Assembly (NCBI GenBank): GCA_022566735.1
Contig: JADFIG010000002.1
Span: forward strand, 186,001-250,000
Source of the DNA: Pseudomonadota bacterium
GTDB taxonomy: Bacteria; Pseudomonadota; Gammaproteobacteria; Burkholderiales; Burkholderiaceae_C
Length of the DNA stretch: 64,000 nt
Direction of reading: 5' to 3'
Shown here: in pieces, positions 33,178-39,536 of the stretch
How the letters are laid out: each line of letters begins with the position of its first letter
Position numbering within the stretch: the first letter of the stretch is position 1
The notes under the pieces: model-generated
Database searches by the model: none
Seen by the model: the letters and a program-made list of their open reading frames with translations, nothing else
Told to the model about the DNA's origin: nothing
Program-made: the position numbers and the translations under genes

Positions 33178-33348
33178 GCGCACGTGATGCCTGCCTGATG
33201 CGCACTTGATGCGCATCTGACGCACTGCGCCATCCGCGCGCGGTGGGTCAAGACATCCCTGAGGGTGTGATCGAAACACCGAATCCGACTTGCGCGTGCG
33301 AGGCCTCGCGCTATGGTTGGTGCACATCACACACCACAGGGAACCCCC

Positions 33349-34734
33349 ATGACTTGCTCACGCGCATGCCGCGTCGGGCTGGGTTGGGTGCTGGGCGCAC
33401 ACATGCTCCTGGCCACCGCAGCCGAGGCCTCGACCACCTTCTCCACCTACTTCAACCACCGGCCTGAAGCCAGCTTCGTCGAGCCCCATCGCGGCACGCA
33501 ACGCGAGGGCGACAACTTCGAGCAGGTGATCGTGCAGCGCATCACAGCGGCACGCACCCGCATCGACGTGGCCGTGATGGGCATCACCTTGCCCCACATC
33601 GCGCAGGCATTGGCCCAAGCCGCGCGCCGAGGGGTGCAGGTGCGCGTCGTGATCGACAACGGCTACAGCAGGAACTGGGCCGCCTTGACGCCCGACGAAG
33701 TCGCCAGCCTGAGCGATGCCGACAAGGAGGTGTGGGCCGAGGTGGACAGCCTGGTCGATGTCAATGGCGACGGCGAAGCATCCGATGCCGAACTGGCCGC
33801 CAACGATGTGGCCACCATCCTGGCGCGGGCAGGCATCCCGGTCATCGACGACACCGAAGATGGCAGCAAGGGCTCAGGCCTGATGCACCACAAGTTCGCC
33901 GTGTTCGACGGCGAGGTCGTGCTCACGGGCTCGGCCAACTGGACGCACAGCGGTTTCTTCGGCGACATCGGGCGGCCCGCCAGCCGAGGCAATGCCGAGA
34001 ACCTGGTGGAGGTGCGCCACGCCGAAGTGGCCCAAGCCTACGCGCAGGAGTTCGCCCTCATGTGGGGCGATGGGCCAGGGGACTCGCGCAACAGCCGCTT
34101 CGGCATCGCCAAAGGCGCACGTGCAGCCCTTGGCATCAGCACACCCGAAGGACTGGTTCAGCTTCAGTTCGGGCCCTTCTCCGCGAGCAAGCCCGTGGCC
34201 ACGACCACGGTCGGCTTGATCGACTCGGTGCTCCAAACGGCGGTGAGTCGCATCGACTTGGGCGCCTTCGTGCTGACCGATGCCACCTTGACCGACACCA
34301 TGGCACAGCGCGCCGCCAAGGGCGTGATGGTGCGTGGCCTGTTCGATCAGGGCTACGTTGACAACGACTTCAGCGCCACGCTGGACATGTGGGGCGTGCG
34401 CTTGCGGGATGCGGCCTGCGCGCTCAAGCCGCAGTTGCGCCCCTGGCCTGTCATGCCCATGGCCATTGGTTATCCGGTCTTGCCGGAGGGCGACAAGCTG
34501 CACCACAAGGTCGCGGTGGTGGACGACCGCGTTGTGATCGCGGGCTCGATGAACTGGTCGGCCGAAGCGCTCAGAAGCAACGATGAGAACGTGCTCATCG
34601 TTCATTCGCCCGCTGTGGCGACAGCGTTCCGCCAGGAGTTGGAGCGCCTGCATGCCGCGGCGGTGTATGGGCCTTCGCCGGCCTTGCGAGCCCGCGCCAT
34701 CCAGGACGCGCAGCGCTGCGCCAACACCCGATGA
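33349..34734 (+). CDS. secreted phospholipase D-like (dual HKD) protein with EF-hand-like insertion
   Basis: Signal peptide; HHKFAVFDGEVVLTGSANWT and HHKVAVVDDRVVIAGSMNWS HKD motifs; DVNGDGEASDAE at 33757-33792. Confidence 0.88.
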   Translation: MTCSRACRVGLGWVLGAHMLLATAAEASTTFSTYFNHRPEASFVEPHRGTQREGDNFEQVIVQRITAARTRIDVAVMGITLPHIAQALAQAARRGVQVRVVIDNGYSRNWAALTPDEVASLSDADKEVWAEVDSLVDVNGDGEASDAELAANDVATILARAGIPVIDDTEDGSKGSGLMHHKFAVFDGEVVLTGSANWTHSGFFGDIGRPASRGNAENLVEVRHAEVAQAYAQEFALMWGDGPGDSRNSRFGIAKGARAALGISTPEGLVQLQFGPFSASKPVATTTVGLIDSVLQTAVSRIDLGAFVLTDATLTDTMAQRAAKGVMVRGLFDQGYVDNDFSATLDMWGVRLRDAACALKPQLRPWPVMPMAIGYPVLPEGDKLHHKVAVVDDRVVIAGSMNWSAEALRSNDENVLIVHSPAVATAFRQELERLHAAAVYGPSPALRARAIQDAQRCANTR

Positions 34735-34751: not shown

Positions 34752-35312
34752 ATGAATCGCTTCATTTCGAACGCGCGCCGCTGCTTGGGCGCTTTGCTCT
34801 TGCCCATCGTGCTGGCCCTGCCAGCCTTTGCGGCCGACAAACCCCTGCCGGGTGAAGTCAAGGTCATCGATGTCAAAGAGGCCATGAGCCCAGCCAATGC
34901 GGCGTTCCAGGCCTGTGCCACGGGCATGCCACCGGGCAAGGCTGTGGCTGTGGGCGTGGACCCATCCATCAGCCGCACCGGCATGGTGAAGTTCGATGGC
35001 CTGGGGCCGGACGGCAGCCTGCTGATCGAGGCCAAAGGCTTTGGGTACAAGATCGATGAAAAGCTGGGGGTGTGGAAGGTGGGCTACGTCGCAGACAGAA
35101 TGCAGACGAAGTTGATCAAGCAGGCTGAACGACAACTGGACGCAGTTCGCTCGGTTGGACGGTCTGTGCAGTGGGTGGTGCCCAACGAGGGCATCCGCAA
35201 AGCATTTGCAGAACTTCTTGACGGGCGGATTCCTGTGAAAGTTGGACCTCCCAGGCCCGACTGTCCCAAATCAAGTGGTTCAGGCGGAGGGGACGCAGGT
35301 GGCTCCTTTTGA
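34752..35312 (+). CDS. Sec-signal-bearing protein with Tox-REase-5-like (PD-(D/E)xK) C-terminal domain, putative toxin
   Basis: MNRFISNARRCLGALLLPIVLALPAFAADK signal peptide; VKFDGLGPDGSLLIEAKGFGY...QAERQLDAVRSVGRSVQWVV matches the remembered D...ExK pattern of Tox-REase-5. Confidence 0.65.
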   Translation: MNRFISNARRCLGALLLPIVLALPAFAADKPLPGEVKVIDVKEAMSPANAAFQACATGMPPGKAVAVGVDPSISRTGMVKFDGLGPDGSLLIEAKGFGYKIDEKLGVWKVGYVADRMQTKLIKQAERQLDAVRSVGRSVQWVVPNEGIRKAFAELLDGRIPVKVGPPRPDCPKSSGSGGGDAGGSF

Positions 35313-35348
35313 CGTGTTGGCATGCCCTGAATGGAAGCACCTGAGAAC

Positions 35349-36086
35349 ATGACTTATCCCGACTACCGCTTGGTATGCACTTGGGGCGCCCGCAGCCAGA
35401 CAGCCCAGGAAATCGCGCACGATGTGATGCGGTTCTCGCAGCGGCTGCTGGATGCGTGCCCGCAGTTCGGGGCCTGGCATTACCTGGGCCCACGTGACAA
35501 GCTGATGCCCTTGCCGCTCGATGCGATTCAAGTGTGTCAACAGGCGATTGAGCCAGGCAACTGCGAGCGGCGTGGCGCTGCGCCCGATCTGGTTTTGCCC
35601 GTGGGGTTCAGTGTGTTGCTGTACACGTCCAAACGAGACGGTGTTGCCTGGATGGCCCATGTGGGCAAGGGCACGGCCTGGGCCCATAACCGCGTCGCCA
35701 TCAACTGCGCCCGCAGGGGCGATCTGGCCCAGGTCATGACCGAGCCCGACATGATGGAGCGGCTGTTTCGGGTCATGGTCGAGGTGTGGCAGCCGGACTG
35801 GGCGAGGGTCTCGCACACGGACATGAGCGACCCAGAGTACGCATTCCCCGTGCACTGGATGCTGTACGGCCGCGAGCCCTTGCCGCCGGGGCTGGTGCTG
35901 CCCGATGGCGTTCGGGCGCATGGCTTGACCGGCGCGTCTGGCGAGGTGCTGGCGCCGGGCCAGTACTTCGTCACCACGCCGGGCGAGCGCTTTGTGTACA
36001 GCCACCCCGAGCACCAGGCGCGCTGCGAGGCCTTGAAACGAGTCTTGCGCGAGGCGGGGTGGTTGCCGCCTCCGCCGCAGGCGTGA
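35349..36086 (+). CDS. Imm52-family-like immunity protein, copy A
   Basis: Directly downstream of the toxin-like gene; family called from gene order and remembered Tox-REase-5/Imm52 pairing. Confidence 0.65.
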   Translation: MTYPDYRLVCTWGARSQTAQEIAHDVMRFSQRLLDACPQFGAWHYLGPRDKLMPLPLDAIQVCQQAIEPGNCERRGAAPDLVLPVGFSVLLYTSKRDGVAWMAHVGKGTAWAHNRVAINCARRGDLAQVMTEPDMMERLFRVMVEVWQPDWARVSHTDMSDPEYAFPVHWMLYGREPLPPGLVLPDGVRAHGLTGASGEVLAPGQYFVTTPGERFVYSHPEHQARCEALKRVLREAGWLPPPPQA

Positions 36087-36112
36087 CGCTTGATCCTTGC
36101 TTGACAAAGAAC

Positions 36113-36856
36113 ATGACTTATCCCGACTACCGCTTGGTATGCACTTGGGGCGCCCGCAGCCAGACGGCCCAGGAGATCGCTCACGATGTGGTGCGTTTTT
36201 CATCGGCCTTGCTGGCGGTGTGCCCCGCGTTGCAGGCATGGCATTACCTGGCGCCCAAAGACAAGCTGATGCCCTTGCCGGATGACGTCGATGAAGTCAG
36301 GCTCAAGGTCCTGAGGCCAGGCAATGGTGCCAGGCGAGGTGTTGCGCCGGACTTGACCTTGCCGGTGGGCTTCAGTGCCTTGCTGCTGACATCCAAGAAG
36401 ATTGACGCAGCATGCTGGATGGCTCACACGGGCTCGGACGGTGGTGGCTTGGGCAGCCGCGTGGCCATCAACTGTCCTCGCAGGGGCGATCTGGCCCAGA
36501 GCATGACCGAGCCCGGCATGATGGAGCGGCTGTTTCGGGTCATGGTCGAGGTGTGGCAACCGGACTGGGCGAGGGTCTCGCACACCGACATGAGTGACCC
36601 AGAGTACGCATTCCCCGTGCATTGGATGCTGTACGGCCGTGAGCCCTTGCCGCCGGGGCTGGTGCTGCCCGATGGCGTTCAGGCGCATGGCTTGACCGGT
36701 GCTGCGGGCGAGGTGCTGGCGCCGGGCCAGTACTTCGTCACCACACCGGGCGAGCGCTTTGTGTACAGCCACCCCGAGCACCAGGCGCGTTGCGAAGCCT
36801 TGAAGCGGGTGTTGCGCGAGGCGGGGTGGTTGCCGCCGGTGCCCGTCTTCGCTTGA
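36113..36856 (+). CDS. Imm52-family-like immunity protein, copy B
   Basis: Tandem paralogue of copy A: identical first 26 residues, divergent centre, near-identical C-terminal half. Confidence 0.65.
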   Translation: MTYPDYRLVCTWGARSQTAQEIAHDVVRFSSALLAVCPALQAWHYLAPKDKLMPLPDDVDEVRLKVLRPGNGARRGVAPDLTLPVGFSALLLTSKKIDAACWMAHTGSDGGGLGSRVAINCPRRGDLAQSMTEPGMMERLFRVMVEVWQPDWARVSHTDMSDPEYAFPVHWMLYGREPLPPGLVLPDGVQAHGLTGAAGEVLAPGQYFVTTPGERFVYSHPEHQARCEALKRVLREAGWLPPVPVFA

Positions 36857-37782: not shown

Positions 37783-39132
37783 ATGACCGACACCGCCACG
37801 ACCGGCACCCCTGCTGCGCCCGCTGCCGCCACTTCCGCTCCCGCCTCCAGCCTGTCCCGCCTGCGCATCGACCGCGGCGGGCCGGGGCCGAAAGGCGGTG
37901 GCCAAGCGGTGCGCCGGCGCCTGCCCTGGGGCTGGATCACGGTCGGTCTGGTCGCCGTGGCCGGTGTGGCGGTCAAGCTGCTCATCCCGCAGGCCGTGCC
38001 GGTGCAGACGGCGGCCGTGGTCACCAGCACGCCGTCGCAGCAGTACGTGCAGCTCACCGCCTCGGGCTATGTGGTCGCGCAGCGCCGCGCCTCGGTGGCC
38101 TCGAAGGCCACGGGCCGGCTGATCGAGCTGAACGTGCGCGAGGGCTCGGTGGTCAAGCAGGGCGCGGTCATCGCGCGCCTGGACGCCAGCGATGTGCGCG
38201 CGGCCATCGTCGCGGCCCAGGCGGGCGTGCGCCAGGCCGAAGCCGGCGTGCGCCAGGCCGAGGTGGAGCTGGCCAATGCCGATGCCGACCTCGCACGCAG
38301 CAAGGGCCTGCAGGCGCAGGGCTTCATCTCGCCACAGGCGGTGGACGCTTCGCAGACCCGCGCGAACGCCGCCCGCGCGGCGCGGGCCTCGGCCCAGGCT
38401 GGGCTGGAGGTGGCCCAGGCCCAGGTCAAGGTGCAGCGCGTGGCCGAAGACTTCACCGAGATCCGCGCGCCCTTTGACGGCGTGGTGCTGGTCAAGAACG
38501 CCAACGTGGGCGACATCATCACGCCGCTGTCGTCGGCCGCGGGCACGACGGGCGCGGTGGTGACCATGGCCGACATGTCCACGCTGGAGGTCGAGGCCGA
38601 TGTGTCCGAAGGCAGCCTCTCCAAGGCGCGCATCGGCCAGCCCGTCGAGGTGACGCTGGACGCGCTGCCCGGCGTGCGCTTCCTGGGCCGGGTCGGCAGC
38701 CTGGTGCCCACGGTAGACCGCGCCAAGGCCACCGTGACCACCAAGATCCGTTTCGAGCAGCTCGACGCGCGCATCCTGCCCGAGATGAGCGCCAAGGTCA
38801 GCTTCCTGTCCCAGCCCATCACCGTGGCCGACCAGCAGCCGGTGCTGGCGGTGAACGCCAAGGCCTTGATGCAGGCCGAGGGTCAGACGGTGGTGTGGCG
38901 TGTGCGGTCGGATGCGGCAGCGGGTGGGCCTTCCGCGGCTGTGGCGCCTGCGGCGGGGTCCACACCCACGCTGCGCGCCGAAGCCGTGCCCGTCAAGGCG
39001 GGCCGCCAGCTGGGCGAGGTGCGCGAGGTCACGCCGGTGAAGGCCGGCGCCCTGAGCTCGGGCGACAAGGTCGTCATCCAGGCCGACGGGGTGCTGAAGG
39101 CCGGTGGGGCGGTGCGGCAGGCCGAGCAGTGA
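37783..39132 (+). CDS. HlyD/RND-type periplasmic adaptor subunit
   Basis: N-terminal TM anchor, biotinyl-lipoyl and coiled-coil segments (VASKATGRLIELNVREGSVVKQGAVIARLD...FTEIRAPFDGVVL). Confidence 0.9.
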   Translation: MTDTATTGTPAAPAAATSAPASSLSRLRIDRGGPGPKGGGQAVRRRLPWGWITVGLVAVAGVAVKLLIPQAVPVQTAAVVTSTPSQQYVQLTASGYVVAQRRASVASKATGRLIELNVREGSVVKQGAVIARLDASDVRAAIVAAQAGVRQAEAGVRQAEVELANADADLARSKGLQAQGFISPQAVDASQTRANAARAARASAQAGLEVAQAQVKVQRVAEDFTEIRAPFDGVVLVKNANVGDIITPLSSAAGTTGAVVTMADMSTLEVEADVSEGSLSKARIGQPVEVTLDALPGVRFLGRVGSLVPTVDRAKATVTTKIRFEQLDARILPEMSAKVSFLSQPITVADQQPVLAVNAKALMQAEGQTVVWRVRSDAAAGGPSAAVAPAAGSTPTLRAEAVPVKAGRQLGEVREVTPVKAGALSSGDKVVIQADGVLKAGGAVRQAEQ

Positions 39133-39191
39133 GCCCAGGGCCTTGACGCCCGACGCCGGTGCCTCGGTGCCCGCCTGGGGTGCCGCGCCCG

Positions 39192-39422
39192 CCGAGCAAT
39201 GAGCCTCACCCCCCGAATTCCGAGCTGCGACCGAGCTCCTCGGAGGTGCGGTGTTCCAGCTCAAAGCTCGGCCACCCGAGATCCGAGCTCGGCGCACACA
39301 CCTTTGAACTGCGCATGCCGAGCTCAGGGCTCCGACGTCCGAGCTTTTTGCGCCACGCATGCACCCATCAGGTGCGTGAGCCGAGCTCTGTGCTGTATGT
39401 GCCGAGCGTGTTGCTCGGTGTG
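39192..39422 (+). repeat. degenerate 21-bp tandem repeat array, about 11 units
   Basis: ccgagc motif at 39192, 39318, 39339, 39381, 39402 (ccgaga at 39276), spacings all multiples of 21; unit approx CCGAGCTCNGAGCTGCGNNNG. Confidence 0.75.
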
Positions 39423-39536
39423 CGCAGCAAATGGGTGCGAGACGACAGCTGAGGGCAGTTTGCTGAGCCGAAAGGACGGATGTGGGTGGGGGCGGCACAT
39501 GCCCACATGAAAGCTTCCTTTCATCCTTGCTCGTTA

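Follow-up and report, generated by a model that had tools for sequence, protein, structure and literature searches.

A small Imm52 immunity-gene array, probably recombining through conserved blocks, beside an apparently exported Tox-REase-5 toxin

Introduction

Tox-REase-5 nucleases and Imm52 immunity proteins form an established polymorphic toxin pair (Zhang et al., 2012, PMC3482391); Imm52 is absent from the list of prominent homogeneous polyimmunity families in the same paper. Tandem immunity genes have been described in two other settings. The esaG and tipC tandem immunity genes of Firmicutes type VII secretion systems (T7SS) recombine through homology blocks (Garrett et al., 2022, PMC9484751), and the orphan immunity arrays of the Vibrio cholerae type VI secretion system (T6SS) arise from insertion of effector-immunity modules, with the authors of that work arguing against duplication (PMC5361080).

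Here, we describe two tandem Imm52 genes, A and B, that follow a Tox-REase-5 gene in a 64,000-nt stretch of a Burkholderiales genome (GCA_022566735.1, contig JADFIG010000002.1, positions 186,001 to 250,000), hereafter the window. The locus shares both protein families, the gene order and a match of the Imm52 fold with TseT-TsiT (PA3907-PA3908) of Pseudomonas aeruginosa, and, as in the V. cholerae T6SS arrays, immunity genes pile up behind the toxin. Like esaG and tipC, the locus has non-identical tandem paralogues with conserved blocks around variable regions, chimeric genes, and copy-number change mediated by the blocks. Unlike those genes, which belong to an unrelated immunity family and protect against Firmicutes T7SS toxins, the array is made of Imm52 genes in a betaproteobacterium, and the neighbouring toxin, which has an apparent signal peptide, is block-mosaic too.

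Results

Layout of the locus and its distribution

The genes and gene parts discussed below are as follows (window coordinates).

33313 to 34734, forward strand: gene for a PLD-like protein (Pfam PLDc_2, 1.8e-47; two HKD-type motifs; a likely Sec signal; alternative start at 33349)
34752 to 35312, forward strand: Tox-REase-5 nuclease toxin gene (186 aa; PF15648, 29.7 bits against a cut-off of 25)
34752 to 35081, forward strand: conserved toxin block, codons 1-110, with the FDG...EAKG motif (91-96% nucleotide identity between genomes over codons 1-109)
35082 to 35171, forward strand: variable toxin block t1, codons 111-140 (the window sides with L008; L007 and L009 differ)
35172 to 35201, forward strand: conserved toxin bridge, codons 141-150 (1-5 differences in 30 nt across all four close loci)
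35202 to 35351, forward strand: variable block t2, comprising the toxin C-terminus, the intergenic sequence and the first codon of A (the window goes with L007, and L008 with L009)
35349 to 36086, forward strand: immunity gene A, Imm52, 245 aa (32.2 bits against a cut-off of 25)
35436 to 35726, forward strand: A-type centre, codons 30-126 (96-99% nucleotide identity with copy 1 of both L008 and L009; 60-72% with B)
36087 to 36112, forward strand: 26-nt spacer between A and B, also found between copies in relatives
36113 to 36856, forward strand: immunity gene B, Imm52, 247 aa (35.4 bits against a cut-off of 25)
36200 to 36493, forward strand: B-type centre, codons 30-127 (over residues 57-126 it groups with L008 copy 3 and the single copy of A. 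commune)
from 36874: pyrF (orotidine 5'-phosphate decarboxylase), the next gene downstream of B

The Imm52 profile (PF15579) spans residues 6-240 of A and 6-242 of B, both scoring above the cut-off, and neither protein appears to have a signal peptide. A scan of the locus for promoters and terminators found nothing above chance. Further downstream, after the gene at 37783-39132, lies a GC-rich stretch (39159-39452) containing imperfect inverted repeats, one pair of arms at 39266-39303/39370-39407 and the other at 39263-39293/39317-39347; TRF found no tandem repeat in it.

Homologues of B were found in 8 of 42 genomes of the window's genus, and in five of these the neighbouring toxin and PLD genes are present as well. 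Within the genus, close homologues of the PLD-like gene are restricted to the five genomes in which the toxin and close homologues of the immunity genes also occur, such that this gene tracks the toxin-immunity genes. The same locus is present in three other Aquabacterium-group genomes, and our close comparison covers four loci: the window, L007 (Aquabacterium commune, the closest named relative), L008, and L009, which is cut by a contig end. Alongside A and B in the window, there is one B-type copy in L007, three copies in L008 and at least two in L009, where the contig ends. In L007 and L008, as in the window, pyrF directly follows the array, the copy number at that site thus being one, three and two, respectively. 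With two Imm52 copies in the window and three in L008, this is a homogeneous polyimmunity locus. The A. commune toxin gene (L007 5404-5961) has an in-frame stop; its immunity gene, B-type only, is intact.

More distant relatives are arranged differently. G211 (L044) has a single immunity copy, 55-57% identical, at a different genomic site, and its PLD-family gene is split over two frames. In three genomes, G230, G231 and G216 (the last with a broken copy), leuS has a more distant Imm52 gene next to it, and there is no match to Tox-REase-5; these diverged orphan immunity genes lie at L045 3406-4161, downstream of a transposase-like gene, at L046 588-1292, and at L047 2714-3152, where the copy is broken. 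Genome G207, of the same genus, carries four canonical Tox-REase-5/Imm52 loci (L032, L040, L042, L043), whose immunity proteins have 28-39% amino-acid identity in their N-terminal parts and are 73-89% identical in their C-terminal parts.

Divergence between A and B is concentrated in the centre at silent sites too

A first-pass annotation of this DNA described A and B as genes with identical ends and a diverged middle. That description holds, with exact coordinates, and synonymous divergence runs in parallel with it. Residues 1-26 are identical at 26 of 26 positions, with three silent changes (dS 0.21); residues 27-126 are identical at only 59 of 99 (dN 0.34, dS 1.16); and residues 127-247, from GDLAQ onward, at 114 of 120 (dN 0.04, dS 0.24). 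A repeat search gave the same picture, with 83% for the initial 173 nt, 72% for part of the centre and 94% for a 300-nt portion of the C-terminal half. Divergence along the pair is thus uneven at the DNA level: differences are more clustered along the gene than in all 20,000 permutations, and the same is true of third codon positions alone. Because silent-site differences are clustered, constraint on the protein ends cannot account for the pattern, and DNA exchange is required. An assembly artefact is disfavoured, since genomes assembled independently of one another contain the same block types.

Centre and C-terminal half of the immunity genes have conflicting histories

Across residues 30-126, the DNA identity of window A is 96-99% with copy 1 of both L008 and L009, and only 60-72% with B. 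In a tree of residues 57-126, window A groups with those two first copies (support 100/99), and B falls with L008 copy 3 and the single copy of A. commune; over residues 99-126, a third type, C, is common to the second copies of L008 and L009. By contrast, residues 127-238 of A and B are 94% identical, both with RVSHT...EYAF, where the L008 and L009 copies have TVSHT...EPAC. AU tests rejected an A+B clade for the centre (p=1.8e-5) and the grouping of A with its centre orthologues for the C-terminal half (p=0.001). Support for the within-genome A+B grouping in the C-terminal tree is weak (63/50), but rejection of the centre grouping there is firm. A PHI test, implemented for this analysis, gave p=0.0005, the floor for the number of permutations used. 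This conflict between trees supports recombination between tandem copies, in which import from other strains is not distinguishable from conversion between resident copies.

The copies bear further marks of such exchange. L008 copies 2 and 3 are chimeras, A-type at residues 30-56 and B/C-type at residues 57-126. The 26-nt spacer is identical, or has one or two changes, among window A-B, L008 1-2, L008 2-3 and L009 1-2. The array therefore has the features of esaG-kind arrays: conserved blocks flanking variable segments, tree conflict, chimeric copies and copy-number variation. Centre orthology between genomes (95-100% DNA identity of A to the first copy of other arrays), together with C-terminal similarity within a genome and the agreeing AU and PHI tests, bears out the first-pass proposal that these are tandem immunity genes beside a toxin, with flanks homogenised by recombination; that annotation missed the reshuffling of centre segments in relatives and the mosaic C-terminal half of the toxin.

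The centres are conserved between genomes

We also asked how the centres evolve. In three genomes, the A centre differs at 0-1 of 97 residues (99-100% protein identity; omega 0-0.05), and the C-terminal half of the same A genes differs at 4-12 of 112 (omega 0.07-0.21). For residues 57-126, B-type centres have an omega of 0.08-0.13, and comparisons inside either class, A or B, stay in the range 0-0.13. Between A and B, omega is 0.33 and centre dS is about 1.1 to 1.4; for neighbouring genes of the same genomes, dS is 0.06-0.31. The low centre omega, with the A centre less changed than the C-terminal half, indicates that the centres are old alleles kept intact. The first-pass suggestion that the centre is being diversified is not supported by these values, and fast diversification by positive selection is rejected by dS and omega. 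The A and B centres represent an old allelic difference under purifying selection, and the flanks the part exchanged within the genome.

The toxin is apparently exported and is itself mosaic

The toxin has an apparent Sec signal peptide (MNRFISNARRCLGALLLPIVLALPAFA/ADK), conserved in relatives, and no separate delivery domain; FDG and EAKG motifs are present in it and in all its relatives, and with the profile match they place it in Tox-REase-5. In the canonical toxins of the order, the N-terminus is hydrophobic and there is a CKxCPP-type linker. The window toxin lacks this linker and the N-terminal region of the canonical loci, carrying its apparent signal peptide instead, and so falls outside the definition of a TseT-like effector (hydrophobic N-terminus, CKxCPP-type linker, no cleavable signal peptide, as in the canonical loci compared here). 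A profile of the window-clade toxins matched no PDB chain. Outside the window, the genome encodes a GspD homologue, the secretin of type II secretion, and, on another contig, a homologue of TssB.

Between genomes, codons 1-109 of the toxin have a dS of 0.14-0.25, like pyrF, purB and the PLD gene, whereas codons 110-186 are 65-82% identical, with a dS of 0.5-3.0. The C-terminal half is a block mosaic, with the variable blocks t1 and t2 on either side of the conserved bridge pointing to conflicting partners. Toxin and immunity block types show no one-to-one pairing among the four close loci. The toxins of the window, L008 and L009 differ strongly in the C-terminal half, yet their A centres are almost identical, implying either that A reads a conserved part of the toxin or that another copy serves the resident toxin.

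Imm52 across the family

We compared 44 non-redundant pairs of toxin and immunity protein, drawn from genomes and viral contigs. Identity averages 28% for the N-terminal part of Imm52 and 70% for its C-terminal part, so a variable N-terminal/central part and a conserved C-terminal half are a general property of Imm52. In the same pairs, identity is 53% for the catalytic half of the toxin and 33% for its C-terminal half. In Mantel tests, the toxin C-terminal half had a partial r of 0.29 with the variable immunity half and 0.18 with the conserved half, a difference that kept its sign in 91% of bootstraps (the second bootstrap figure was 68%); this is suggestive of a tie between the variable half of Imm52 and toxin specificity.

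An AlphaFold model of the immunity protein from a deeper alignment was of moderate quality (pLDDT 66, pTM 0.67). Its sole significant PDB match was 9oz0_A (E 2.4e-4, TM 0.55-0.58), which is the immunity protein in the PA3907-PA3908 complex, and the modelled protein is accordingly predicted to have the Imm52 fold.

Tandem Imm52 genes also occur elsewhere, three in L063 and two each in L059, L025 and L024. In the viral contig L063 (2646-5269), the three follow a single Tox-REase-5 gene. In all, 51 viral contigs (L058-L108) encode canonical Imm52, nearly always straight after a Tox-REase-5 gene, pointing to carriage of the canonical pair by prophages. For the window clade itself, we considered phage or plasmid carriage and rejected it: B had no match in phages or viral contigs, and the toxin had none in plasmids.

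Discussion

We consider it probable that A and B form a small Imm52 polyimmunity array, next to an apparently exported Tox-REase-5 toxin, in which old alleles are kept while the copies recombine through conserved blocks. We propose that these blocks (the first ~29 codons, and the C-terminal half with the 26-nt spacer) allow copies to pair; pairing would homogenise the blocks within a genome, shift copy number between one and three, and move centre segments between copies. The centre would comprise a few old, preserved alleles (A, B and C), and each of them presumably has a toxin specificity of its own. The toxin would be made with a Sec signal and exported, and the immunity proteins, which are cytoplasmic, would bind toxin that enters the cytoplasm of kin. 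Copy A, next to the toxin gene, would most likely neutralise the resident toxin, with B as a reserve against other toxin alleles. Retention of only a B-type copy in A. commune, whose toxin gene has an in-frame stop, is what would be expected if A were the antidote of the resident toxin, albeit in a single case. It is plausible that B is reserve (orphan) immunity, and likewise that the immunity centre is the toxin-binding face, as the first-pass annotation had supposed.

The array could instead have grown by successive displacement, with a new toxin and immunity A inserted upstream of an older B, as in V. cholerae T6SS, and the flanks blurred by later recombination. The order A-(C)-B, with A adjoining the toxin, in three genomes would fit this, as would the age of both centres and the orphan immunity arrays of such origin already described (PMC5361080). 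Nonetheless, the copies have no trace of a displaced toxin between them; the 26-nt spacer that separates them is itself repeated, and the flanks are homologous throughout, consistent with duplication and recombination; we regard displacement as possible but rather unlikely. Simple duplication with later positive selection acting on one copy's centre, the version favoured by the first-pass annotation, would account for the concentration of amino-acid differences in the centre, but silent differences also cluster there (dS 1.16 versus 0.2), both centres have orthologues in other genomes, and omega is low both between A and B and within their classes, making this explanation highly improbable. 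Alternatively, one copy might regulate the toxin gene rather than serve as antidote to a second toxin. There is a precedent in the second immunity protein of Burkholderia gladioli TseTBg (reviewed in PMC9990079). However, A and B have the whole fold and the C-terminal half in common and, as weaker evidence, no promoter-like site stands above chance; we consider a regulatory role improbable.

Recombination among tandem immunity genes through conserved blocks, known from Firmicutes T7SS, thus probably extends to a proteobacterial Imm52 array, in which the linked toxin is block-mosaic as well. We tentatively raise the further possibility that the toxin C-terminal half and the N-terminal/central half of the antidote are both shuffled via conserved bridges, with recombination working around two conserved parts, the catalytic core and the C-terminal half of the antidote, thereby yielding new toxin-antidote specificities. 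The locus offers natural chimeras for asking which part of an immunity protein sets toxin specificity. Storing several antidotes by recombining tandem copies is known in other bacteria; here, it would occur in a new family.
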